A stretch of DNA of 35,501 nucleotides from Stramenopiles sp. TOSAG23-6 (Eukaryota; Sar): NCBI GenBank assembly GCA_900128565.1, contig LT635943.1:1-35501 (forward strand). Direction: 5' to 3'. The notes beneath the pieces are model-generated. The model ran no database searches. It had not been told where the DNA came from and saw only the letters and a list, made by a program, of their open reading frames with translations. Made by a program: the position numbers and the translations under genes. How positions within the stretch are numbered: position 1 is the stretch's first letter; the number at the start of each line of letters is the position of its first letter. This document shows, piece by piece, positions 1,293 to 35,441 of the stretch.

Positions 1293-2469
1293 TTAATCAA
1301 ATCCTTCAACGTTTTTATGTTTTACAACATATCCACCCATATCTCCAGAACCCTGTTCGACAGTGTATGCCCAGTCTTCAAATCCTTTTACATGAAGTTT
1401 ATCTTTTGAAAGCCCTGAGTCTTCTTCTTGAAGTTTAGCAGGATGACTTGAACCACATTCATCTCCATACACTGACATAGCACGTCTATATGTATTTTAG
1501 AAAAATATTTCAAAAAAAAATCGTTACGTACAAAATTTCGTACGAAAAAAAAATCGAATTTGAAAAAAAATAAAACATACATATTTTTGAAAAAAAATAA
1601 AACATACATATTTGTTCACTTAATCCGAACATTGGGGTCGGTTGACCAACTCTCTTTGACATTTGATCACCAATATTAAGATCTTTACAATGAAGCTTGA
1701 TTTCAAATCCTGGATCGAAACTTTGGTTATACATTAGAGGAACTTCAGTTTCAAATACATATGAGTTTCCCGCCGAATATCTAACACCATCAAAAAATTT
1801 ACGTAAATCTACACCAGATTTTTTTGCTAACATTGCAGCTTCCCCAGCAGCAATAAGGTGGACTCCGGCTAACTGATTTGTAATAATTTTAACAACAGAC
1901 GCTGCTGGAGTATCTCCCATCCGCAGAACTGTGTTTGCATAACACTTCATCAAAGGTTCCCATTGATTTGATAGGGTCTCATCACCCCCAACTAAAACAG
2001 TCATCATTCCAGCTTGTAATAATTGCAACCCACCTGTTAATGGTGCTTCAAGAGAAGGTATTCCTTTGGCTTTAGCCAACATATGCAGTCTTGTTGACTC
2101 ATCTGGATCTGTGGTTGTATGATCTATCCAAGTTGTTGCACCATTTGAGTCTGCAAGAACATCCAGTAAACCACCAAAATCAGTACCCTCGCCTTCCATA
2201 ACTAGGCGAACATGAGGAGGAGCAGGCAAAGCAGTGATCAAAACATCAGAACCAGTTGCTGCTAAAGACGGAGTATCCACCCAAGTTCCACCTGCAGTTT
2301 GTATTTCCTCGCGATTTTTGTTTGATACGTCAGTCACCAAAACTTCGTGACCTTCTTTGAGCAAATTAATTGCCACGGCACGCCCGATTTGGCCTGCACC
2401 AACAACACCAACTTTTAATGAAGATGTCGCAATTGAAGACAAACAACGAGATATACACGGAGAGAGCAT
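1293..2469 (-). CDS. 3-hydroxyisobutyrate dehydrogenase-family NAD(P) oxidoreductase
   Basis: Exons complement(1610..2469) and complement(1293..1491) join in frame to 352 residues. The N-terminus (MLSPCISRCLSSIATSS) is Ser/Arg-rich and lacks acidic residues, which suits a mitochondrial presequence. A Rossmann dinucleotide motif GAGQIG follows at residues 24-29. The all-alpha domain carries the catalytic-lysine helix VVKIITNQLAG (Lys about 194), as in the HIBADH/beta-hydroxyacid dehydrogenase family. HIBADH acts in mitochondrial valine breakdown, but related glyoxylate/succinic semialdehyde reductases cannot be excluded. The exons are separated by introner 1492-1609; splicing joins FGLSEQ to IYRRAMSVYGDE, a natural continuation of the last helix. 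A TTG codon upstream is in frame, but ATG at 2469 is the first ATG. Confidence 0.85.
1492..1609 (-). mobile_element. Introner copy 1 (HIBADH-family gene), 118 bp
   Basis: This copy starts AT-GTATGTTTT, holds TTCGTACGAAA and GTACGTAACGA, and ends TTCTAAAATAC followed by AT. Removing 1492-1609 (AT...AC), or the equivalent 1490-1607 (GT...AT), restores the frame. The nearest 3' AG (ATATAG) gives the wrong frame. The first 27 bp are tandemly duplicated, so a second donor lies 27 bp inside the intron. Confidence 0.85.
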
Positions 2470-3373: not shown

Positions 3374-5275
3374 TTAAAAAAATCCACTAAGTGCGCTTTT
3401 TTCTGATTTTTCATCTTTGGAACGCGTAAATCTATTAGCAGTAGAGTCGCGATGTTTTCGTATTGCAGCGTCTCGTTCCTTGGCTAATCTCTCTTGCTTA
3501 AGCTTCCCTGTTGTATCTTCTTTCTCACGCTGAAGTTGAGCCATTCTGTTGACAAGACCAGACGTAGCATTACCATCCGCAGCTTCTCTCTTTTGCCTTT
3601 GTACTTCTTTCTGCACTGCTGTGAGATCTTTATGAAGTTGTCGAATGTTCCAAACACCAGTACCAGTATCATAGTATGCAGAAAGGTCTTCATCTGTTGT
3701 GTATGAATCTAGTGATTTTAATAATTGCCACTGTAACTCAGGTGAAATCTTTGTGAAATCTATTTTTTCTGGCGGAATTTTTTCCTCTGTACTGTCAATT
3801 GTATCTTCTTCTTCTTCAGGATGTAACATTCTCCACGATTCATAATTTGGATGTTCTTTATGAGATTCTCTTCTATTTTCACACAACCAACTATTAAGTT
3901 GTGTTTCGGATAATTGAGAGGGTGGTGGTTGATTTTCTATTATCTGCCATTCTTCATCAGTTCGCTCTATCTCCACATCGGCAACAACCATAGCTTTTGT
4001 TTCATTCAACACATCACCATATAAGTCATCATCTTCATCATCATCATCATCACTAAAAACAACTTCTAATGGATTTGAATTCTCATTAAGAAACGAATGA
4101 ATTCGATCTCGGACTAAACTCATCATTTCTTTACCTTCCACCTGACAATGTGTACCATGAAAACAACATATAAATGCATGAACATCAAATACTGCTTGTA
4201 AAGAACCATCTTTTAAATTGCGAAACACTAATGAAGGTGTCGTATGTGTTGAACTCCAACGGGTTGGACCTGTGTTGCTGGAAAAATATTGTTTTACTCT
4301 ACATTCGTTAGGTACAAAATTTAGTATGAAAAAAAAATAAATTTAAACATAAAAATGAAAACATACCACATCCTGACACTCCTCGCTCCCAATCCTGTAC
4401 CTCTAATTCAGCGTATATATCAGAAATACGCATATCATGTGTTAGACGAGCAGTACCAACTTTTGCCCCTGTACAACAAACTAAACACCAACACTTTGCA
4501 AAAATAGTATCTGATGAAAAACGAGGAGCATCGAACCATCCAGTTGGACAACAGGGGAAACATTTACCTGTTTGTACCATATTACTAGTGCTTCTACATC
4601 GAATACATTCTCCAAATGTTTCACAACAACTATAACTAGTTTCTTCTATAGTGCATCTATCGTTTACTTTATCGAAAGTTATAGTTCGTGAAGGAGGAAC
4701 ACAACAACCACAACAAAAAGAAATCCAGAAAAAGAAAAATGTATTTTCTAAAAANATTTNAAAAAAAAAAAANCTAAANTTTGTTAGGTACAACATTTCG
4801 TATGAAAAATAAATTCGAAATTGAAAAAAAAATAAAACATACATACAAGCCACCACCAAGAGTTACCACCGAAACCCTCTATTGCATCGCGGTCTACATA
4901 TGTATGGTTTAACATAAGTGATGCATGACCATTACTAAATAAAGCAGAATTCAAAGCTTGAAGAGCTTTCCATTGTTGTGCTTCGCCATATTGTGGAGAC
5001 CAAGAAATTTTGTCTCCCATGTTAAAAGCAATGAGCCCATAGATCGACATGATGAACCAGAGCCATAAGATGAACCATATTAGTTCGGACAGGATTTTTG
5101 AAGAAACTGGATGCGTCTTGATTTCAAGTACTTCAAGATTCTGTGAAAATTCAGCAGTTTCCAGGAAAGCCCACTTATTATCAGTATGAGGTCTTGAAAC
5201 ATTTGTATCGGTTGGTCGCAAATGCCGAAACTCTGGATGGGTTTTGGCGTATCGCTTTCTAATAAATTTTCTCAT
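3374..5275 (-). CDS. Cys-rich multi-pass membrane protein of unknown function
   Basis: Three exons, complement(4845..5275), complement(4367..4740) and complement(3374..4269), join in frame to 566 residues. I do not recognise the family. Visible features are a hydrophobic helix around ELIWFILWLWFIMSIYGLIA, a second made across the first exon junction (WWWLV joined to FFFFWIS), and a Cys-rich stretch (CCGCC, CCETFGECIRC, CFPCC, CWCLVCC). An acidic low-complexity run (FSDDDDDEDDDL) follows, and then a long charged coiled-coil C-terminus. The N-terminus is uncertain. The frame stays open upstream of ATG 5275 to a TAA at about 5353 and encodes another strongly hydrophobic segment (CICYFFCIIYYASYQ), so an upstream exon may exist. 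The gene carries two introners, one without and one with a 3' AG. Confidence 0.65.
4270..4366 (-). mobile_element. Introner copy 3 (unknown membrane protein), 97 bp, GT-AG
   Basis: The donor is GTATGTTTTC, the body has CATACTAAATTTTGTACCTAACGAA, and the acceptor is CAACACAG followed by GTCC. GT-AG splicing yields ...SGCG-PTRW... in frame. Unlike most copies it is not preceded by AT, and its end is ACAG rather than ACAT. Confidence 0.85.
4741..4844 (-). mobile_element. Introner copy 2 (unknown membrane protein), 104 bp
   Basis: The copy starts AT-GTATGTTTTA, contains TTTCGAA, CATACGAAA and GTACCTAACAAA, and ends AGAAAATAC followed by AT. Removal as AT...AC (or GT...AT, 4739-4842) joins WWWLV to FFFFWIS in frame. 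Four ambiguous bases (4755, 4760, 4773, 4779) lie in its homopolymer tracts, which suggests a collapsed or poorly resolved repeat. Confidence 0.8.
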
Positions 5276-9813: not shown

Positions 9814-12401
9814 TTAAAATAATCCACTAAAATTGTTTGTCATATCATTCAAAGAAGAACTGTCTTCAAGAATACTACTAAACTTCAAACTGTTCAATAA
9901 GTTGACATCTAAATTCATAGTAATAGCATCATTTTTTATGCTTTTGCTTTCATCCTTTTTAGTTTCACTCAACATGATCTTCTTTTTCATAGTAGATGTC
10001 GTAGAAACCCTTTCATTTTTCATTTTAAGTTTTGCTTCTTTTCTCTTCAAACGATCTGCACGTTTTGCATCTCTTGCTTTTAACATGGCTTCATGAGAAA
10101 TTTGAGCAGGTGTTTTTGTACGAAATTCCATCGCCCCAGAGTTTAAAAGTTCTTGAAATGAAGTATCATTTGCCAATACTTTTTCAAACATCACACGTAC
10201 TCTTCTTAATTCAGATACTGAGCATATACATGCAAGAAGTTCAGACAGAGTTCGTTTTTCTAATGGCTCTTTAAACGCGGCTACAGGTGAAGTTTTACAT
10301 GTTCCAAATATGCTTGGATTTGCAACAGCAAGTAACATAAGTGAACGTTCACCATTTAATTCAGATAATTTTTTCAGAACATTTTTTCTGGAATCAGAAG
10401 ATGGAATTGGTATCAATTTACGATTTTCTTCATCCACATCTTTACTCTCAACATCATCATGAATGAGATATGCTGACTTTGCCATCATATCACACGTACT
10501 TGTAGAAGAATCGCGAAGTAAACTGTATAACTTTACTGCAGCTAAACGAGAAGTATGTATTGTGAAAAAAATTAAAATTATGTTTTTGTTAGATACAGAA
10601 ATTGGTACTACAATAAATATATTTGAAATCCATAATAAAAAAATACATCACTATCTTCAACACATCCAGGAATCCATCCAGGCATTCCTCCTTCTTTAGG
10701 CTCAGCAGTCCAACCTATTGAATCGTGAAGTAATGTCGCAATATCAAATTCTTCTCCTTTTGAATTACATTCCATAGCTAATTGTACTTCTGCACAATAA
10801 CGTTGTGTTGCTACATCATCTTCCTTGGAAAGANCTTTTGCTTTTTGAAGTTGTGTACGAGCAATAGTAGCATTTTTTTTATCTGGAGGATTTGATGATT
10901 CAGAAATCTCTAGAAGTTTTGTAAAATCCTGAATGGCTCCTTTCCAATCTTTAAAACCTAATCTCGCCATCCCACGCCTGTAAAAAGCTTTACTATGTAG
11001 TGGTGATATTAAAATTACCTCATCAGCTGCAATAAATGCTTCTATATAACGGTGAAGACGTAAAAGTACAGCAGATCGATTAGAAAGAGCAGCTACATCT
11101 GAAGGATTCAATTCAGCTGCTATATCATAATATTTCAAAGCTTTCGCATAATCCTTTTTACGAAAACAAACATTTCCCGCCTCTCTTTGTGCATTCGCTC
11201 GAACTTCTCTATCATCTACAGTAACACTTTTACTACTCAAAGACTTATCTTTACTGGTTGATGAATCCTCAGAGGAATATTTTTTTATATCCATTTCAAT
11301 ATCAGAGGAATATTTTTTTATATCCATTTCAATATCTCTTGGGTATATTGGAACTCGACCACTTTCAGTTCCTTTTAAAATGTCTTCACATTCTTTACGT
11401 GTCCGTGGAACAGAAAACTCTCCACTTTTACTTACTATATTATTTGGATAATAACGAACCCATGTATAACCTGAACGACGTAGAATCGAAGCACAAGAAA
11501 TTATAGAATCACTACTACTACTACTACTAATAGGATCGATAGGAATTAGACGGAACGGTAAAGTATGAACAATTGCAAGTGGAGTTTTTTCAACCCAGTC
11601 AAGTGTCAGATCACCCATCAAACATAATCCAATAGGATTTTTTGAACCAGAAGTGAGAACATGATTTGCTGCAACAAACATAGCAACTACATCACCTGCA
11701 TTACTTGCAGGTCTTTTTCGATCCGCTAGAATATTTGGAAATAAAACTACTCGTGTTGCATCAAAGCCATCTTTCCACCCACTTGATGCACAATTTGTTG
11801 GATGTACATCCCAAGCTCTTGTATGTGCAGTACGTTGAGATAACTCACGCGTTGCCATATCTAGAGATTTCGCAAAGGAAATACCCCAGTGTTGTAAAAG
11901 TGTATCAGTCACAGGGACACATGAACTTCCCAAATCCAGAATAGTGACTAAGGCTAGGCTATCCGTAAACATATTTTCTATACCAAGCATTGAACAGTAT
12001 GGTACACTTGTCTTTTTAGGGAGAGCTTTGTTTTTTTCAATAATCCATGAACGTGTAGTGAGCAGTGGTCTTAGTTTGCCACTAGCTGTATCAAGTGACA
12101 TCATCGATGAAGTCTCTGCATCCATCGAATTCTCTGCTTTCGAATTAGTACTATTATCAGAAGAAAAATATGTTTGAATACATTGTCCAATGAAACATGC
12201 TCGGTCAGTGTCAGTTTGGCATTGCTGGGAATATTGTCCAAACATGGTCAAAAGTGGAAGCTGTCTTTCTGATCCATTCACGGAAAGTGTCATTAAACCA
12301 GTATTACTGTCTACAGGCGTATCCTTTGTCACCTCCACATGCACAACTTTTGCAGCTTCCTGAAGAAGCCGCGTCACAAAACTTTGTAGTTTTTCTGCCA
12401 T
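9814..12401 (-). CDS. TPR-repeat protein with large N-terminal region, function unknown
   Basis: Exons complement(10649..12401) and complement(9814..10556) join in frame to 831 residues. Residues ~1-390 form a globular region I cannot assign. It contains LVTILDLGSS, TRVVLFPNILADR and MLGIENMFTDS, with a strand/helix look. Residues ~395-500 hold at least three TPR units (NAQREAGNVCFRKKDYAKALKYYDIA begins the array; then LSNRSAVLLRL; then AFYRRGMARLGFKDWKGAIQDF). TPRs of this type often bind Hsp70/Hsp90 C-termini. The C-terminal part is helical and very Lys-rich (ARDAKRADRLKRKEAK). An 11-residue unit (DIEMDIKKYSS) is repeated in tandem before the TPRs. One ambiguous base lies at 10834. Start ATG 12401 is followed by an amphipathic helix. 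Confidence 0.75.
10557..10648 (-). mobile_element. Introner copy 4 (TPR protein), 92 bp
   Basis: A diverged copy that starts AT-GTATTTTTTTATT, contains GTATCTAACAAAAACAT and ends TTTCACAATAC followed by AT. Removal as AT...AC (or GT...AT) joins VEDSD to TSRLAAVKLYSLL in frame. Without it the C-terminal 224+ residues would look like a separate gene. It keeps the ATGTAT/ATACAT ends. Confidence 0.75.
11269..11334. repeat. Perfect 33-bp in-frame tandem duplication inside the TPR gene
   Basis: Two identical 33-bp units lie head to tail and encode the 11-residue unit DIEMDIKKYSS twice. Perfect identity at the DNA level indicates a very recent slippage duplication, or possibly an assembly artefact. 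Confidence 0.95.
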
Positions 12402-16391: not shown

Positions 16392-18116
16392 CTACTTGGT
16401 CTCTCTGAATTCCTTTGCAAATTCACGAACACACTGTACAATAGCATTTTCGAGTAAAGGGATTACACTCTTTGCTCCTACCATATGCTCAGCTTTAGGC
16501 GAATTATTGAGCTTTAACTGATTTACCTCAATATTTTCAACTTCACCTGACTCAATCTCTGAAAGGACAACATGGTCTACTTCAGCATATACTAACTTAC
16601 CCTTAATAGTAGTCCCATCGGGAGCTGTGACAGTAAATGCAACAGTAAAATTGGATTCAAACATGTAACGTTTCTTTTTACGTATTACAGCAACTGAGGC
16701 TTCACAACCAACTTTTGTAGGTGCTGATGCTGATGCACGAATGCTATATTTCTTTGTTTCTTCTTGTACATTATTTTGTATTGAAAAGGTTTGATCAGCA
16801 ACACCACGCTTCAAACAAGAAGTTAGACAAGTTTTTGCCCAAACACTAACGTCAAGATCTTCCCATGTTTTGTAAAAAAATATGACAAATTGGATGTTTT
16901 TGTTTAGGTACAAAATTTCGTATGAAAAAAAAATAAATTTAAAATTCATGATGAAAACATACATGTTGTCCCTGACGCATTCCATGAACTTCCAGCACAA
17001 CCTGAAGCACGTAATTGTGCATCATTTTCTAATTGTTTCTTTAAAGTTCTAGGTGATAAAGCTTTTGGTTTGATATCACCGATGAGGGAAGTGTCTTCTT
17101 TAGAAAGTTCCCGTTTGAAGTAACAATATCCTTTCTCTTTAATATTTCGCATATCGTCATGTATTTTGGAAAAATATTTCAAAAAAAAAAAAACTAAAAT
17201 TTGTTAGGTACTTTTTTTGTTTAAAAAAAAAAATAAAACATACATTTTCACTTTTTGTTAATGTTGTACGTTCTTGTTGTATTGGTTTATTTGCAGATAA
17301 TAATGTTGGTGGAGGTGGGGCCATTTTTTCCTTTCGATTTTTATCTTTTTCTTTTAATCTCGCTTTTGCAAGTTTTTCTTTCTCTTCTTTTTCAGCTTTT
17401 TCAGCAGCTTCGCGGACTTTCTTTTTTTCAGCAGCAATATCAGCATTTACAGATGCAACAATGGCTTTACGTGACCGATCATGAATTTGTGGTCGCAAAC
17501 GCTTATATGCCTTCATTGCTTGTTTATGACCCTTTTCAATGTTTAATAATACAAAAAAGTCTCTAAACGCTTTTTCCACAAAACCTAATTTTTCTTGAGC
17601 TTGACCCCGACGAAATAAACCCTTTATCAAACCTAACTCCAAAGCTTCTTTTGTTGGTTCTTTACCAGATTTGAAATCACACATTTTACTCGAAAGAACT
17701 TGATTGCAGTCCTTTAGAGCTTTCTCTGCAATAGACGAATCATCTGGTGTACACAGTTTTACATAACAAAAAGCGCGGTTCAAAAGGATTTTAGACTTCT
17801 CAACCTTGCGTTGTCGTTTTGTCTGTTTCGATATTAATTTTGATTCTTCCGGCAACTCTAGAAGTGCAGCGTCATACTTTTTAACAGCATTCGTGTAGTC
17901 TCCAGCTTTAAATAGAACATTTCCTTCAGATTTCTCCGCGATACAGGCTGCAAGCGGCGGTGCAAGGTCTGGGTCGTCAATGTTTTCAAAACGGGAATAG
18001 TTGTTTACATCAGAAGTTGTTTGGTTAGAAGTGGAAGATATACTACTAGAATTAACCTCTTCTGAATTTTTCTCCACACTATCAGTAACACATTCCATAG
18101 GTGTATTCATAGTCAT
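16392..18116 (-). CDS. TPR-Aha1 fusion, probable Hsp90 co-chaperone
   Basis: Exons complement(17246..18116), complement(16965..17160) and complement(16392..16866) join in frame to 513 residues. Residues ~45-205 are a TPR domain (AEKSEGNVLFKAGDYTNAVKKYDAAL, KILLNRAFCYVKL, GLFRRGQAQEKLGFVEKAFRDF) of the type that binds the EEVD tail of Hsp90/Hsp70. A Lys/Glu-rich linker follows, with a KGYCYFKRELS block in exon 2. From about residue 345 comes an Aha1 N-terminal-like domain: SWNASGTTWEDLDVSVWAK across the junction, then long beta strands (YMFESNFTVAFTVTAPDG, IKGKLVYAEVD, GEVENIEV). Aha1 stimulates the Hsp90 ATPase; its C-terminal SRPBCC domain is absent here. Putting TPR and Aha1-N on one chain would give two Hsp90 contacts. 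Two introners interrupt the gene. Confidence 0.8.
16867..16964 (-). mobile_element. Introner copy 6 (TPR-Aha1), 98 bp
   Basis: The copy starts AT-GTATGTTTTCATC, contains CATACGAAATTTTGTACCTAAACA and ends TTTTTTTACAAAAC followed by AT. Removal as AT...AC (or GT...AT) rebuilds GTTWEDLD, in which the Trp-Glu pair is conserved in Aha1 proteins. The next 3' AG (GGGAAG) would delete that conserved Trp. Confidence 0.85.
17161..17245 (-). mobile_element. Introner copy 5 (TPR-Aha1), 85 bp
   Basis: The copy starts AT-GTATGTTTTA, contains GTACCTAACAAATTTTAG and ends TTCCAAAATAC followed by AT. Removal joins TKSEN to DDMRNIKEKGYCYF in frame. The internal TTTTAG lies far upstream and gives no sensible junction. 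Confidence 0.8.
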
Positions 18117-18359: not shown

Positions 18360-19766
18360 TTAAAACTGTGCAGCACACCGACCAATAATATTCACTACTT
18401 GGTCGATTTGATGTTCATTAATACAAAGAGGTGGTGCTAATCGAATTATATGCTCATGAGTCGGTTTTGCAAGAACTCCTAAATCTTTCATATCCATACA
18501 AAAATCCATAGCTGTTCGATTATTTTTTGGTGTAATTATTATTGCATTAAGTAGACCTTTACCTCTAACAATCTCAATAGGAGAAGAATCGCCACCTACT
18601 TTCTGAACTTCACGAATTCCTCTTCTTAACTTCGAACCCAAGTGTTGTAAAGAAATATTTCAAATTAGACATTCGTTAGCTATGAAATTTCGTATGAAAA
18701 AAAATAATAAATTCGAAATTGAAATGAAAACGTACATAATTTCTGCGTTTTCTGCCAGATTTTCATCACGAATCACTTCTAGTGCAGCAGTAGCTACTTT
18801 ACATGCTAATGGGTTACCTCCAAATGTTGAACCATGTTGGCCTGGTCTTATAGTGAGCATAACCTCATCAGAAGCTAAAACAGCTGAAACGGGTAAAATC
18901 CCACCGGATAAAGCTTTCCCTAGGACGAGTATATCAGGTTTTACTTGATCATGGTCACATGCTAATAATTTTCCAGTTCTTGCCAAGCCTGTCTGTACTT
19001 CATCAGCGATCAATAAAACATTATGTTGACTGCATATATCCTTGGCTTGTCTCATGAAACCTTCATCAGGAACTACGACACCAGCTTCACCTTGAATCGG
19101 TTCAACCATAAAAGCAGCACAGTTGGGATCACTAACAGCTACTTTCAAAGCATTCAAGTCATTATATGGAATTTGCTCAAATCCAGGGACAAAGGGACCG
19201 TAATTTGTGTAACTTTCTGGATCAGTTGATGAAGATACAGCTGCAAGAGAACGACCCCAAAAATTATTATTACAAAATACTACCTTTGCTTCGTTGCTCG
19301 GAACACCTTTTACTTCATATGCCCATTTACGACTAAGTTTAACTGCTGTTTCTCCACCTTCTACCCCCGAATTCATCGGAAGTACGCGATCGAAACCAAA
19401 GTATTCGGTTATAAAGCGAGAATATGGTCCAAGAATGTCATTATGGAACGCACGAGATGTCAAAGTCAAAGTCTGAGCTTGTTCTGTTAACGCCGAGATA
19501 ATCTTTGGATGGCAGTGGCCCTGATTGACTGCAGAGTATGCTGATAGAAAGTCAAGATACTCTTTTCCATCGGTATCCCATACATGTACTCCTTTTCCAC
19601 GAGCCAACACTACTGGCATGGGATGATAGTTATGTGCTCCATGTTTATCTTCGAGCGCCATACAAGTATTACCACTTGCTGGGAAAGATGTAATGCTGGG
19701 TTTGGAAATTGCAGCTGCTCTTGCACTCGATCTTCTCACAGCTCCAAGCATAGAACTAGATACCAT
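18360..19766 (-). CDS. OAT: Ornithine aminotransferase, mitochondrial
   Basis: Exons complement(18738..19766) and complement(18360..18641) join in frame to 436 residues, the usual OAT length. The enzyme moves the delta-amino group of ornithine to 2-oxoglutarate using PLP, linking arginine/ornithine to proline and glutamate. Class III transaminase signatures are visible: [68 protein letters not shown], and the PLP-lysine motif LGKALSGG (Lys about 284). The C-terminal [11 protein letters not shown] is typical. Starting at [20 protein letters not shown] gives a good mitochondrial presequence; an in-frame ATG 96 bases upstream would add a less suitable extension. The junction [14 protein letters not shown] matches the human ENAEKLG region without gap. 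Confidence 0.93.
18642..18737 (-). mobile_element. Introner copy 7 (OAT), 96 bp
   Basis: The copy starts AT-GTACGTTTTCATT, contains TTTCGAA, CATACGAAATTT and CTAACGAATG, and ends TTTACAACAC followed by TT. No 3' AG gives a frame. AT...AC yields Ile-Leu-Gly; the shifted GT...TT cut (18640-18735) yields Ile-Met-Gly. This copy can separate the two splice models, because the mRNA would read UUG or AUG. Confidence 0.85.
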
Positions 19767-29888: not shown

Positions 29889-32542
29889 ATGTTTGTTGTA
29901 AAGCGATCAGGAGAGAAACAGCCTGTGCAATTTGATAAGATTACTGCTCGTATCAAAAAGCTATGCTGGGGTCTTGCTATCGATCCAACTTTGATTGCTC
30001 AAAAAGTTGTCATGGGTGTTTATCCTGGTGTGACAACCGTTGAACTTGACCGTCTTGCTGCTGAAACTGCTGCGTACTCAGCAACTGAGCATCCAGATTT
30101 TTCAAAGCTCGCTGCTCGCATTGAAGTATCTAACCTTCACAAAAATACTCTAAAGAGTTGGGCAAAGACCTGCAAAGTTCTTCACTCGTATGTTCATCCA
30201 AAGACAGGCCTCAATGCCTCTCTTATTTCCGACGACGTGATGGAAATCGCAGAAAAGTATGCTGATCAACTCGACGCAGCTATTATATATGATCGTGATT
30301 ATGATTATGGTTACTTTGGATTCAAGACCTTAGAGCGTGCATACCTACTACGTGTAAACGGAGTAATTGTTGAGCGTCCTCAACACATGCTCATGCGTGT
30401 CGCAGTTGGTATACACAAGGATAATATTCCAAAAGTTTTGGAAACGTATGAAATGATGTCAACTAAACATTACACACATGCAACACCAACCCTATTTAAT
30501 GCTGGTACTCGACGCCCTCAAATGTCATCCTGTTTTCTCATGACTATGAAAGAAGACTCTATTGAAGGAATTTATGACACTCTTAAAAATTGTGCATGCA
30601 TCTCGAAGTATGCTGGTGGTATTGGTATTTCAATTCACAATATTCGTGGATCTAACTCCTATATTCGTGGAACCAATGGTTCTTCAAATGGTCTTGTACC
30701 AATGTTGAGAGTTTTTAATGATACTGCTCGTTACGTTGATCAAGGGGGAGGAAAACGAAAAGGATCTTTCGCTGTTTATCTCGAACCTTGGCATTGTGAT
30801 ATTCTTGAATTCCTTCAACTGAAAAAGAATCATGGTAAAGAAGAAGCGCGTGCAAGAGATCTCTTTTATGGACTTTGGGTTCCTGATTTATTCATGGAAC
30901 GCGTTCAAAAGAATCAAGATTGGAGTCTCTTCTGCCCAAATGAATGCCCAGGTCTCGCTGATTGTCATTCGGAAGAATTTGTAGCTCTTTATACTAAATA
31001 CGAAAACTCAGGCAAAGCTCGTACAACGATGAAAGCTCAAAAACTTTGGTTTCAAATATTGGAGTCTCAGATCGAAACCGGAACTCCCTATATGTGTTTC
31101 AAAGATGCTTGTAATAGCAAATCTAACCAAAAAAATCTTGGAACTATCAAATCGTCAAATCTTTGTACTGAGATTATGGAATATACTTCACCAGATGAAA
31201 TTGCTGTCTGTAATCTTGCGTCTATCAATCTTTCCAAGTTTGTTGATGCTAAAAATCGAACATATGACTTTGAGAAACTCGTCAAGGTGTCTGAAATGTG
31301 TGCATATAATTTAAATCAAGTCATTGATTTGAACTACTATCCAGTTGAAGAAGCTCGTAATTCAAACATGCGTCATCGACCAATGTATGTTTTATTTTTT
31401 TTCAATATCAATTTTTTTTTCATACGAAAGTTTGTACCTAACGAATTTTTTTTTGAAATATTTTTCCAAAATACATTGGTATCGGAGTTCAAGGTCTTGC
31501 TGATGCTTTTATGCTTATGAAATATCCTTGGGAATCTCCGGAAGCGAAACAATTGAACAAAGATATCTTTGAAGCTATTTACTATGGTGCCATGAAATCA
31601 TCCATTGAATCTGCTAAAAAAGATGGACCGTACTCTACATTCCAAGGATCACCTCTTTCTGAAGGCAAGTTTCAATTTGATTTATGGGGTGTCACACCAG
31701 AATCAGGTCGTTTTGATTGGGATGCTCTTCGTACTGAAGTCATGAAACATGGTGCTCGTAATTCACTTCTCATTGCTCCTATGCCAACAGCTTCTACTTC
31801 TCAAATATTGGGAAATAATGAATGTTTCGAACCATACACTTCAAATATTTATTCACGTAGAGTTCTTGCTGGTGAATTTACTGTTGTCAATCGACATGTA
31901 CATTATCATCATTTATTTCATTTTTTTTTTTAAAACAAAAATCCTACAATTTCACAAACCTAACGAATTTTCAAATATAAAACAACATATTGTTTAACAA
32001 CACAGATGCTTACCGAACTAATTGACTTGGGCCTTTGGACACCTGAAGTTCGTAACCAGTTAATTGCTGATGGTGGCTCTGTTCAAAATATTCAAGGAAT
32101 TCCTGATGAGACAAAACAATTATTTAAAACTGTTTGGGAAATTAAACAAAAGTGTTTACTTGATATGTCAGCTGATCGTGGTGCATATGTATGTCAGTCA
32201 CAGTCTCTTAATGTTCATATGGCTGCTCCTAATACTGGAAAACTCACATCAATGCACTTTTATGCATGGAAAAAAGGACTGAAGACTGGAATGTATTACC
32301 TACGAACACGACCAAAAGTTGATGCAATTCAATTTACTGTCGATCAAGCTTCATTGAAGGTCACTCGAGCAATGAAAGACACTACTATCTCTGGCACAGA
32401 AAACAAAGCTCCTACAAATGTTTTGAAAGTAAAAAAAGAAAGTGCATCAAAATCAGCGCCTGGTAGTGGAAGTTGGAGTAAAGCTGGACCAGTTGCACCG
32501 TCTAGAAATGAAGTTGAAGAGTGCTTGAACTGTGGATCCTAA
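29889..32542 (+). CDS. RRM1: Ribonucleoside-diphosphate reductase large subunit (class Ia)
   Basis: Exons 29889..31382, 31475..31897 and 32006..32542 join in frame to 817 residues. The enzyme reduces NDPs to dNDPs with the R2 subunit. Seen in order: N-terminal ATP cone ([20 protein letters not shown]), the active-site Cys in [13 protein letters not shown], loop [33 protein letters not shown], the Asn-Cys-Glu radical site in [26 protein letters not shown], and the C-terminal redox pair in EECLNCGS. Exon 1 joins exon 2 as [16 protein letters not shown], exactly the conserved family sequence, which fixes the first intron's ends. Exon 2 joins exon 3 as [14 protein letters not shown]. The GTG two codons upstream is not needed; ATG 29889 gives the standard N-terminus. 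Confidence 0.96.
31383..31474 (+). mobile_element. Introner copy 8 (RNR intron 1), 92 bp
   Basis: The copy starts AT-GTATGTTTTA, contains CATACGAAAGTTTGTACCTAACGAA and ends TTCCAAAATAC followed by AT. The protein is so conserved here (HRPIGIGVQG) that the cut must be AT...AC (31383-31474), GT...AT (31385-31476) or TG...CA. No GT...AG choice fits. This is the strongest single case for a non-AG acceptor. Confidence 0.93.
31898..32005 (+). mobile_element. Introner copy 9 (RNR intron 2), 108 bp, GT-AG
   Basis: A diverged copy with donor GTACATTATC preceded by AT, core CAAACCTAACGAA and end TTAACAACACAG. GT-AG joins VVNRH to MLTELIDLG. The shifted AT...AC cut (31896-32003) is also in frame and would give Gln instead of His. 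The family alignment favours His. Confidence 0.8.
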
Positions 32543-33054: not shown

Positions 33055-34233
33055 TTAAGCCGCGATTGGAGCCTTGGAAGCAAGTGGACCAAGAGTCTTA
33101 TCTTTTTCAGCAGCAGTTTGAAATCGACCGTGACCAAATTTGGAAGACGTATCGATAAAGGAAAGAACAATTTCTTCACGAGCTTGAATAGAGACATTTG
33201 GTACAATGCTTTTACGGAGAGTGATGACACGCTTCTTGCAACCTACAACACAGCCCTTGAGCATAATCCAGTCATTACGGACAATACCGTAGTGAGGGAA
33301 ACCACCCATTGGAGTGATAGATTTAGCTGTGAGATCAACTTCTGTGGAGCATGAAGTTTCATCTCCTTTCTTACCGATGCGGTAAATCTTCTTGTTGACT
33401 TCGGTACGGTGATGGTAACCATTCTGACCAGCACGAGCAACAGAGAATGACATACGAGCAGGATGCCATGAACCAATACAAGCGACCTTGCGAAGACCAC
33501 GGTGAGTTTTTCGTGGAAGACGAGATGTTCCCCAACGAGTTGTTACACCTTCAAATCCTTTACCCTTGGTTACACCAATGCAATCAATCATTTCATCCTT
33601 GTTGAAAACGTTATCAATTGGAATTTGCTGTTCGAGAAGAGAGGTAGCAAAATCAACCTTTGCTGCAACATCACCACCGTTAATTTGGATTTCCATGACG
33701 TGAGCTTTCTTCTGGCGGAGGTTGAGTTCCTTCATCTGAGTGTGCGCGATGACACGGATGACTTGGCAGTATTTCTTCATGCGAGCAAGCTCATTGTTAA
33801 TGTCCTTCTCGGATTCAGTACCGTACTTCTTAGCAAACTTGGTGAAAGCTTTTTTCTTGGAAGCGTACCAGTTCTTGTAGAAGCGGCGTCTGACGCAATC
33901 ACTCAAGTGCTGAGCCCAGACAGTGGTAAGAGTACGGAGGCCACGTGGAGTTTCGACGTAACCAACAACTCCTACAACAATCATTGGTGGGGTTTCAATA
34001 ATGGTAACAGCCTCAACGATCTCTTTCTTGTGGAGACCAGAGCCAAGACGGTCAACAGTGCGCTGGATGTGAGTCATACCAGCCTTGTAGCCCATGAAAG
34101 CGGTAAGGTGAGGTGCGACGGAAACATCATCCTTTGGAAATTTACGGATGCGACCACGGTGACGTGCGCAACGCTTACGTGGGAGGAACCCAAGGGAACC
34201 ATGACGAGGAGCTTCGAATTTACGGTGAGACAT
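33055..34233 (-). CDS. RPL3: 60S ribosomal protein uL3
   Basis: A single exon encodes 392 residues, the standard eukaryotic uL3 length. uL3 is an early-assembling core protein of the large subunit, reaching the peptidyl transferase centre. The N-terminus [20 protein letters not shown] is essentially invariant in eukaryotes. [37 protein letters not shown], the [26 protein letters not shown] block (with the His that is methylated in yeast) and [20 protein letters not shown] ending are all present. Its DNA is visibly less AT-rich than its neighbours, as expected for a highly expressed gene with codon preference. It has no intron, although many low-expression neighbours do. Confidence 0.97.
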
Positions 34234-34537
34234 TTTAGTTTATAGTGGTGTTAAGTGCTCAGAACAACAAAAAAACAACCACACGAGACAGCGACAACCA
34301 CTCTTCAAAAGTCGCGTGTGACTGACTACATAAGCAAAAATTCAGAAAAAGCAGGTTTGCGCAAGAATTTTTTTTTCTGAAACGTCCAAAAAAATAAAGA
34401 GTTTTTCAACTCTTCTTTTGAGTTAATCCAATAGAGCTACTAATATTTATCATATAGGTAGTAAACAATTTAAATTCATTCTCCCAAGGACATGTTCTCA
34501 TGCATCATTCAACATGTCATGAATACTAAACTGCGTC
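34234..34537. other. Divergent promoter region between uL3 and the channel gene
   Basis: No gene is seen. It is AT-rich, with poly-T (34369-34376) and poly-A runs in the uL3 5' flank. No telo-box or GTTACCCGGT site was found here. Confidence 0.5.
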
Positions 34538-35441
34538 ATGCGTAGTAGAATATCCAGAGTCGAACCTGATATAATCATTGATACCAATGATCGACATTGC
34601 AAAAATGGTAAAGTTGTGCCGACAAAAAACAGTGATACTGAAAAGGCTGCTATCCCTTCCCTACCATCAATAAAACAACCACCAATAAGCGACGGAGTAG
34701 TTATAATGAAACAACAGCTAGCAAAAATGAAACGAGATCATCTTTTCTATTTAAATCGTGCTACGTCACCTTGGATGCTTTGGTGGGATATATATATCAT
34801 TCTTCTTTTAGTATACACTGCTATAGTCACCCCCTATCAAGTAGGCTATCTATCACCTGAGTATAATATTTTTTTTTACATTGATCGTCTGATTGATTGT
34901 AGTTTTGCATTAGATATGGTATTCTGTATATTTACAGCAATATGGGATGAAGAAAATGAACGATGGGTTTATGACCACAAAGCAATTCTTTCTAATTACT
35001 TTCGGTTTTGGTTTTTTATTGATTTTGTTGCAATCATTCCATTTGACTGGTTTGCTTTAGCAGGTGAAACAAATGGTGAAAGGGTACCTCAATGGATGGT
35101 TTATATGAGAGTTTTACGCCTTACGAGATTATTGCGTTTGTTTAAATTATTTGGTTTGCTTCAGAAACGAAATTACAATGTATACTTTGGAATTTCATAT
35201 AGTATGTACGTTTTCATTAGTAATTTCAAATTATTTTTTTCGTACGTAATTTTGTACCTAATGAGAAAACAGTGACATATTTTACACTACACATGATTTC
35301 TATATCAAAATGTGTTTGTATAATTGCCGTTGTAGCACATTTATCTGCTTGTTGTTGGGGTTTAGTAGGTAGTATTGAATTAGTTGATTGGACTGGATGG
35401 TTCGTTCATTATGGTATACAAAATGATACAGAAGTTTATAT
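34538..35441 (+). CDS. Voltage-gated cation channel, EAG/CNG-type (3' part outside window)
   Basis: Exon 34538..35201 is followed by exon 35273..about 35441; the gene runs off the window. The N-terminal ~75 residues are hydrophilic. S1 (WWDIYIILLLVYTAIVTPYQVGY) has the T-PY motif typical of EAG/HCN/CNG channels. S2-S3 follow (DRLIDCSFALDMVFCIFTA; YFRFWFFIDFVAIIPFDWF). S4 has regularly spaced arginines (VYMRVLRLTRLLRLFKLF), the voltage sensor. Exon 2 gives S5 (CVCIIAVVAHLSACCWGLVG) and the turret before the pore. The selectivity filter is not in the window, so K+ versus mixed-cation selectivity cannot be told. The reading frame turns T-rich after DTEVY, probably because a second intron starts there. 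Confidence 0.82.
35202..35272 (+). mobile_element. Introner copy 10 (channel gene), 71 bp, GT-AG
   Basis: The shortest copy: GTATGTACGTTTTCATT, CGTACGTAATTTTGTACCTAATGAG, end AAAACAG. GT-AG joins GISYM-TYFTLHMISIS in frame; AT...AC would not. The T-rich segment between branch-like core and acceptor is lost, which brings the core to within about 12 bases of the AG. Confidence 0.85.

Follow-up and report, generated by a model that had tools for sequence, protein, structure and literature searches.

Few eukaryotic signals are as constant as the AG that ends introns, and the locus studied here raises the question of how an intron can be removed where no AG acceptor fits. The window, i.e. the whole stretch analysed, is the 35,501-nt contig LT635943.1 of Stramenopiles sp. 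TOSAG23-6, taken from a partial assembly of 8.03 Mb in 408 contigs. The host is probably a MAST-3 stramenopile, a single-celled marine flagellate. The first intron of the RNR gene in this window was examined together with related elements in the window and in the rest of the genome, focusing on their boundaries, reading frames, flanking dinucleotides and splice signals.

RNR intron 1 and related copies in the window

In RNR, the exon upstream of intron 1 ends with ...CGA CCA AT (CGACCAAT) and the downstream exon starts with TGG TAT CGG (TGGTATCGG). When a 92-nt unit and intron 2 are taken out, the gene encodes an 817-aa protein which aligns to human RRM1 without gaps over RHRPIGIGVQG. From the branch motif to 60 nt into the exon two AG were found, both of which give a shifted frame with stops, and the original prediction that no AG acceptor fits this intron thus held. 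Judged from the sequence, the unit (31385-31476) must be removed if a normal enzyme is to be made. The introner-type introns of the window are listed in Table 1, where left and right refer to the dinucleotides adjoining the element on its two sides.

Table 1. Introner-type introns of the 35,501-nt window (positions on LT635943.1) in the reading in which the left dinucleotide would be exonic
Feature	Position	Strand	Ends	Remarks
RNR intron 1 introner	31385..31476	+	GTATGT...ATACAT	left AT 31383-31384 read as exonic, right AT 31475-31476 as intronic
RNR intron 2, diverged introner-like copy	31898..32005	+	GTACAT...CACAG	left AT, right AG, giving a GT-AG intron
Channel-like gene (named by eye), introner-like copy	35202..35272	+	GTATGT...AACAG	
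HIBADH introner	1490..1607	-	GTATGT...ATACAT	5' part of the element tandemly repeated
Membrane-protein introner	4739..4842	-	GTATGT...ATACAT	some N inside; no open AG alternative
Same membrane-protein gene, second introner	4270..4366	-	GTATGT...CACAG	left TG, right AG; keeping the right copy gives a stop
TPR-gene introner	10555..10646	-	GTATTT...ATACAT	
TPR-Aha1 introner a	17159..17243	-	GTATGT...ATACAT	
TPR-Aha1 introner b	16865..16962	-	GTATGT...AAACAT	
OAT introner	18640..18735	-	GTACGT...ACACTT	left AT, right TT

A cut comprising the element and one copy of the flanking dinucleotide gave an in-frame join in all ten introner-type introns examined. Seven of them do not end with AG (RNR intron 1, HIBADH, the first membrane-protein copy, TPR, both TPR-Aha1 copies and OAT) and three do (RNR intron 2, the second membrane-protein copy and the channel-like gene). 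Openness of AG alternatives was tested across 90 nt, and among the non-AG copies only RNR intron 1 and the first membrane-protein copy have no open alternative. In-frame exonic AG at 6-27 nt, the use of which would delete 2-9 residues, were found in HIBADH, TPR, both TPR-Aha1 copies and OAT; in OAT the residues that would be deleted occur in relatives. The six copies which had been predicted to behave like RNR intron 1 do join in frame at the element, but the strict proof by reading frame fails for five of them and holds for the membrane-protein copy.

Several features of these sequences are recorded here as observations. Given the repeated 5' part of the HIBADH element, removal as one intron and stepwise removal are both conceivable, and the same applies to a kinesin gene (L056, 171-355) in which two complete introners lie head to tail in one intron. 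A near-palindromic CRTACGAAATTTTGTAC is located immediately 5' of CTAAC in many introners (31420-31440 of the window and others). At 340-400 the window contains a short interstitial, telomere-like CCCTAACCCTAAC with a direct repeat of AGAATAAACCAGATACTTTATTC on its flanks.

Family size, boundaries and reading frame

A genome search with the RNR copy returned 1626 first-look candidates, among which 40 were scored, all with E < 1e-30. The strict pattern GTATGTTTTATTTTTTTTC-N50-80-AAAATACAT gave 112 matches genome-wide, counted without deduplication and with duplicated contigs included, versus 0 for the reversed control. For the statistics below, 64 sequences (323 kb) yielded 382 anchors, which were aligned to two consensus forms; a score of at least 70 retained 135 copies and deduplication left 128, 7 of which had too little flanking sequence for the frame test (n = 121). 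Selection in these main statistics was by alignment score, instead of the GTA[TC]GTTT start and the ATAC required for an earlier 62-copy set. The 128 deduplicated copies have differing flanks, i.e. they are similar introns at unrelated coding positions, as is expected of introners. Because the sequences were partly fetched by likeness to non-AG copies (L001-L030 through similarity to the RNR copy, L051-L063 through similarity to a TPR-Aha1 copy), the dinucleotide shares describe this sample and are not a genome-wide census.

Inverted copies were observed inside contigs C2 and C396, and the same locus is repeated on C388, C69 and C64 (L002-L004, L019/L020 and L044-L048). Such loci are what amplified single-cell DNA predicts, so that copy counts need deduplication. 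A PRP4-like gene (L029; PRP4 and WD40 families), belonging to the U4/U6 particle of the splicing machinery, itself holds an introner, flanked by TT and TG. The introner core had 0 exact matches in IMG/VR, a search from which records near the window's genome were possibly excluded.

The first dinucleotide of the element is GT in 117 of the 128 copies, AT in 8 and GA in 3. On the right side AT was found in 93 copies, TT in 12, GT in 6, AG in 5, AC in 4, CT, AA and TG in 2 each, and GG and GC in 1 each. AG is the junction dinucleotide in only these 5 of 128 copies, so most sampled copies do not carry the terminal AG of U2-type introns; anywhere from the branch motif to the element end, AG is present in 39 of 128. 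The element ends with ATAC in 85 of 128.

Open frames (up to 120 nt per side) were joined in 95 of 121 copies when the element was removed with one dinucleotide; with the cut shifted by 1 or 2 bases, the counts were 17 and 24. Among the 77 copies with one open frame per side, 67 were joined at the unit, and 4 and 6 at the shifted cuts; the binomial probability of 67/77, given one third, is 2e-22. Splicing to the first AG left the frame open in 38 of 114 copies, which is the chance level, and in 4 of these 38 the AG is the one at the junction itself. Five introner genes were tested against solved relatives, and RNR, kinesin, a Has1-type helicase, urocanase and a calcium-dependent kinase all align through the junction, the helicase with a one-residue gap five residues upstream of it.

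Flanking duplication, splice signals and rival readings

Flanking dinucleotides were equal in 54 of 67 well-preserved copies (score >= 120), compared with a shuffled mean of 43.3, and none of 20000 shuffles reached 54, as is expected of a target-site duplication of 2 bp. TT pairs with TT in 4 of 7 copies with TT on the left versus 1 of 60 others (p 0.0002), and matching beyond composition is clear only at the two positions adjoining the element, not at neighbouring ones. The signal is weaker in all 128 copies, where 84 match versus 66.5 in shuffles, or 8 of 39 versus 3.9 when the left copy is other than AT. A right copy that was simply intronic would be expected to have diverged more than the left one, but in AT-type mismatches of the 128 copies a left dinucleotide other than AT was counted 17 times and a right one 13 times, which counts against the intronic reading of the right copy; either selection partly maintains the right AT as an acceptor, or a duplication never arose at some sites.

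The original prediction allowed the boundary pairs AT...AC, TG...CA and GT...AT. All three are indeed possible, and because a 2-bp repeat flanks the element they appear to be one cut slid along the target-site duplication; GT...AT is favoured at the discriminating sites. In kinesin (L056, L064), DSLGG, the sequence of the solved kinesins shown, results if the left TT is kept, and DSHGG if the right AT is kept. At RNR intron 2, His, which is shared with human RRM1, is encoded with the left AT and Gln with the right AG. Among 44 mismatched copies, keeping the right copy created stops in 2 (L024 and window 4270-4366, whose right copies are AG) and keeping the left copy in 0. OAT reads Met with the left copy, as in its relative P0241; among 120 listed proteins 58 have Met and 55 Leu. 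Since kinesin, RNR intron 2 and the two stop-codon cases keep the left copy, the evidence indicates that the left copy would be exonic and that the intron would run from GT through the right copy, i.e. GT...AT in RNR; AT...AC is probably not the chemical boundary. The RNR unit as originally placed, 31383-31474 in the AT...AC reading, is the same unit, now better set as in Table 1. Few sites are decisive for this register, most mismatched sites being uninformative, and in a diverged urocanase copy (L013, start ATACG) the right copy, with its residue entered by hand, fits the solved relative better.

Conservation of signals was assessed in 61 diverged copies with a mean identity of 0.79 at non-T positions. 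G+1 was kept in 55 copies and T+2 in 60, and both A of CTAAC were intact in all 61; the final C of ATAC was retained in 45 and AT on the right side in 37. CTAAC falls in the search anchor, which inflates its conservation; the donor is not so affected. A U1-like donor and a branch motif, the latter partly favoured by the anchor, are accordingly both conserved as in U2-type introns. The distance from the branch A to the cut has a median of 36 nt, with 33-45 nt in the central 80% (n = 120). As candidate terminal inverted repeats the ends offer GTAT/ATAC plus little more; when the 59 best-scoring copies were folded, 33 had paired ends, against 9.5 expected in mononucleotide shuffles, and 26 lacked this pairing. 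The exon-intron ends of RNR form CCAATGTAT/ATACATTGG. Paired element ends are a possible structural aid.

Four other readings of these introns were weighed. Introns of the minor (U12) spliceosome have an RTATCCTT donor and the branch motif TTCCTTAAC near the 3' end. Although AT...AC is among the possible boundary readings, a minor-spliceosome AT-AC class is scarcely credible here, and the original prediction was right to separate the family from it: the donor is GTATGT or GTACGT, CCTAAC lies 33-45 nt from the cut (central 80%), which is unlike the U12 consensus, and a U12-like pattern had 2 matches in the genome versus 4 for the reversed control. Very improbable, too, is ordinary GT-AG splicing to an AG inside the following exon, which would shorten the proteins a little, as published gene models have it. 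Five of the seven non-AG window copies do offer an in-frame AG 6-27 nt downstream, and the AG at +15 is the one chosen in the published OAT model P0242, but RNR intron 1 and the first membrane-protein copy have no open AG alternative, first-AG splicing stays at chance, and RNR, OAT and kinesin would each lose conserved residues.

The paired ends, including those of RNR, would suit an excision guided by RNA structure, in which pairing of the ends joins the exons without the usual reading of splice sites, as proposed for the introners of Amoebophrya and the nonconventional introns of euglenids. We consider this improbable, as donor and CTAAC have the conservation typical of U2 introns, GT-AG members occur within the same family and even the same gene, and nearly half of the folds (26/59) lack the pairing. 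The rival to which we would give most room, though still an unlikely one, is that of U2-type AT-AC (NN-AC) introns, with the cut after the constant AC of the element, the left copy intronic and the right copy exonic. Such a cut would agree with the frequent ATAC end, would yield an identical mRNA wherever the duplication copies match, and fits the one diverged urocanase copy better; in addition, the diverged U2AF1 of Fritillaria is described as preferring AC-ending triplets in the available part of PMC13326754. It would, however, give DSH instead of DSL in kinesin, remove the conserved His at RNR intron 2 and create stops in two copies; conservation of the terminal C does not exceed background, and the intron would start two bases ahead of the U1-like GTATGT. 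Ciliate-like excision at the DNA level was set aside, the donor, the branch motif and the AG-ended members making RNA splicing likelier.

Proposed mechanism and relation to known introners

We regard it as likely that the family is an introner with a U2-type donor, a CTAAC motif and an acceptor supplied by the duplicated site, and that it is removed precisely. The element would be a non-autonomous, DNA-transposon-like introner of about 90 nt which inserts at mostly AT dinucleotides and leaves a 2-bp target-site duplication. Its first bases (GTATGT or GTACGT) would serve as a U2-type 5' splice site, and a branch-point-like CTAAC would lie some 36 nt upstream of the 3' cut; the element would bring no AG of its own. 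Removal would extend from its first base through the end of the right duplication copy; the left copy would stay in the exon, leaving the protein unchanged. The acceptor would be whichever dinucleotide got duplicated, usually AT and also TT, AC, CT or GT, and a point change making the right copy AG would produce an ordinary GT-AG intron. The 3' cut would be chosen by its distance from the branch point, perhaps aided by the paired element ends.

Because donor and branch motif are normal, AG-ended members exist in the family and in the RNR gene, and their AG lies at the right copy, the simplest reading seems to be a U2-type spliceosome that is lenient about the 3' end. The original prediction had suggested a U2 spliceosome tolerating a non-AG 3' end, and with the U2-like donor this still appears the best reading. 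The balance tips slightly towards the stronger claim that the major spliceosome of this MAST-3 lineage has dropped the AG requirement and cuts by distance from a strong branch point, the final two bases being those duplicated by the transposon. The U1, U2 and U6 families and U2/U6 core sequences gave no match, to which no weight attaches given a partial assembly, silent controls and candidates only partly scored; U2AF1, with no match and no candidates in the partial assembly, carries no weight either.

The original prediction knew of no such introner family in a protist, and in this respect it was mistaken. Over 60% of the RNA-seq-supported introns of Amoebophrya are non-canonical, and some of these are introners that carry inverted as well as direct repeats (Farhat et al. 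2021, PMC7789003, available part). The likeness is considerable, i.e. a protist with mostly non GT-AG introns, border repeats, end pairing and transposon-like spread; the Amoebophrya introns are, however, described in that part as having no clear end signature, direct repeats of 3-5 nt and inverted repeats of 8-20 nt (PMC7789003), whereas the present family has a conserved GTATGT/GTACGT donor, CTAAC, a 2-bp repeat, short end repeats and a stramenopile host. With a 2-bp repeat and a conserved donor (repeat lengths read from the sequence), it does not conform to the Amoebophrya type. Introner families with target-site duplications, e.g. in Chrysochromulina, carry their own 5' splice site and take the 3' site from the duplication (Gozashti et al. 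2022, PMC9860276, available part). These resemble the present family in being DNA-transposon-like, with their own donor, a duplication-derived acceptor and an unchanged protein; they differ, as far as the available text goes, in duplications of 3-9 bp (4 bp in Chrysochromulina) and GY/AG sites, against 2 bp and mostly not AG here.

Major-type splicing of non-AG 3' ends, including AU and AC, is reported for Fritillaria borealis, a tunicate with duplicated U2AF subunits shown experimentally (PMC13326754, in part); the present case differs in concerning one element family with a canonical donor. Euglenid nonconventional introns share non-canonical borders and an RNA structure joining the ends (PMC4770533, in part), but the present family has a conserved canonical donor, a branch-like motif and AG-ended members. 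A small AT-AC class is enriched in one Demutovirales family among Mirusvirus introns, the branch motif of the order being WCTAAC (PMC12768974, in part), and these AT-AC introns may merit a check for 2-bp duplications.

For MAST-3, single-cell assemblies of 18.9 Mb (MAST-3A) and 21.1 Mb (MAST-3F) have been published (Seeleuthner et al. 2018, PMC5778133), and the present genome is probably a single-cell genome of this kind. In that text "intron" occurs twice, at least once in the methods, and "splic" is absent; PMC8163842 lacks "intron" and has "splic" once, in a reference title, and PMC12614181 contains neither. A duplication of 2 bp giving AT, with removal taking place all the same, is described neither in the available text of the papers cited nor in the titles and abstract beginnings of the listed papers on introners since 2022 and on introns in MAST-3. 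Non-canonical introners and duplication-derived acceptors are, on the partly available sources, already known as a kind; what appears to be new is a canonical donor and branch motif combined with an acceptor dictated by the insertion duplication.

The closest matches of the window's intronless RPL3 (33055-34239), excluding itself and three longer, partly covering proteins, were P0005, an 87% EukProt relative, and P0006 (GSMAST32.ASY1.ANO1.2408.1), which by eye is the window's RPL3 minus missing stretches. The OAT query returned the relative P0241 and the same-genome model P0242 (GSMAST32.ASY1.ANO1.2403.1) among its matches; in P0242 a forced AG join 15 nt inside the exon loses (M)GSKLR, and further pieces are missing. 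When the RNR segment was compared with transcript-derived proteins, none of the 120 listed was near-identical (best P0121, 85%). With protein stretches missing from two published MAST-3 gene models, protein annotations for these marine protists may have to be revised.

In such a family donor and branch motif are normal and the duplication determines the acceptor, which isolates one variable and opens the choice of the 3' splice site to testing. The family would also illustrate how introns could arise from a transposon that brings no acceptor, AT-to-AG forms in one genome being possible intermediates. If this is true, tolerance of a missing AG would let an element without an acceptor become a main source of new introns, which could later turn into GT-AG introns by one base change.
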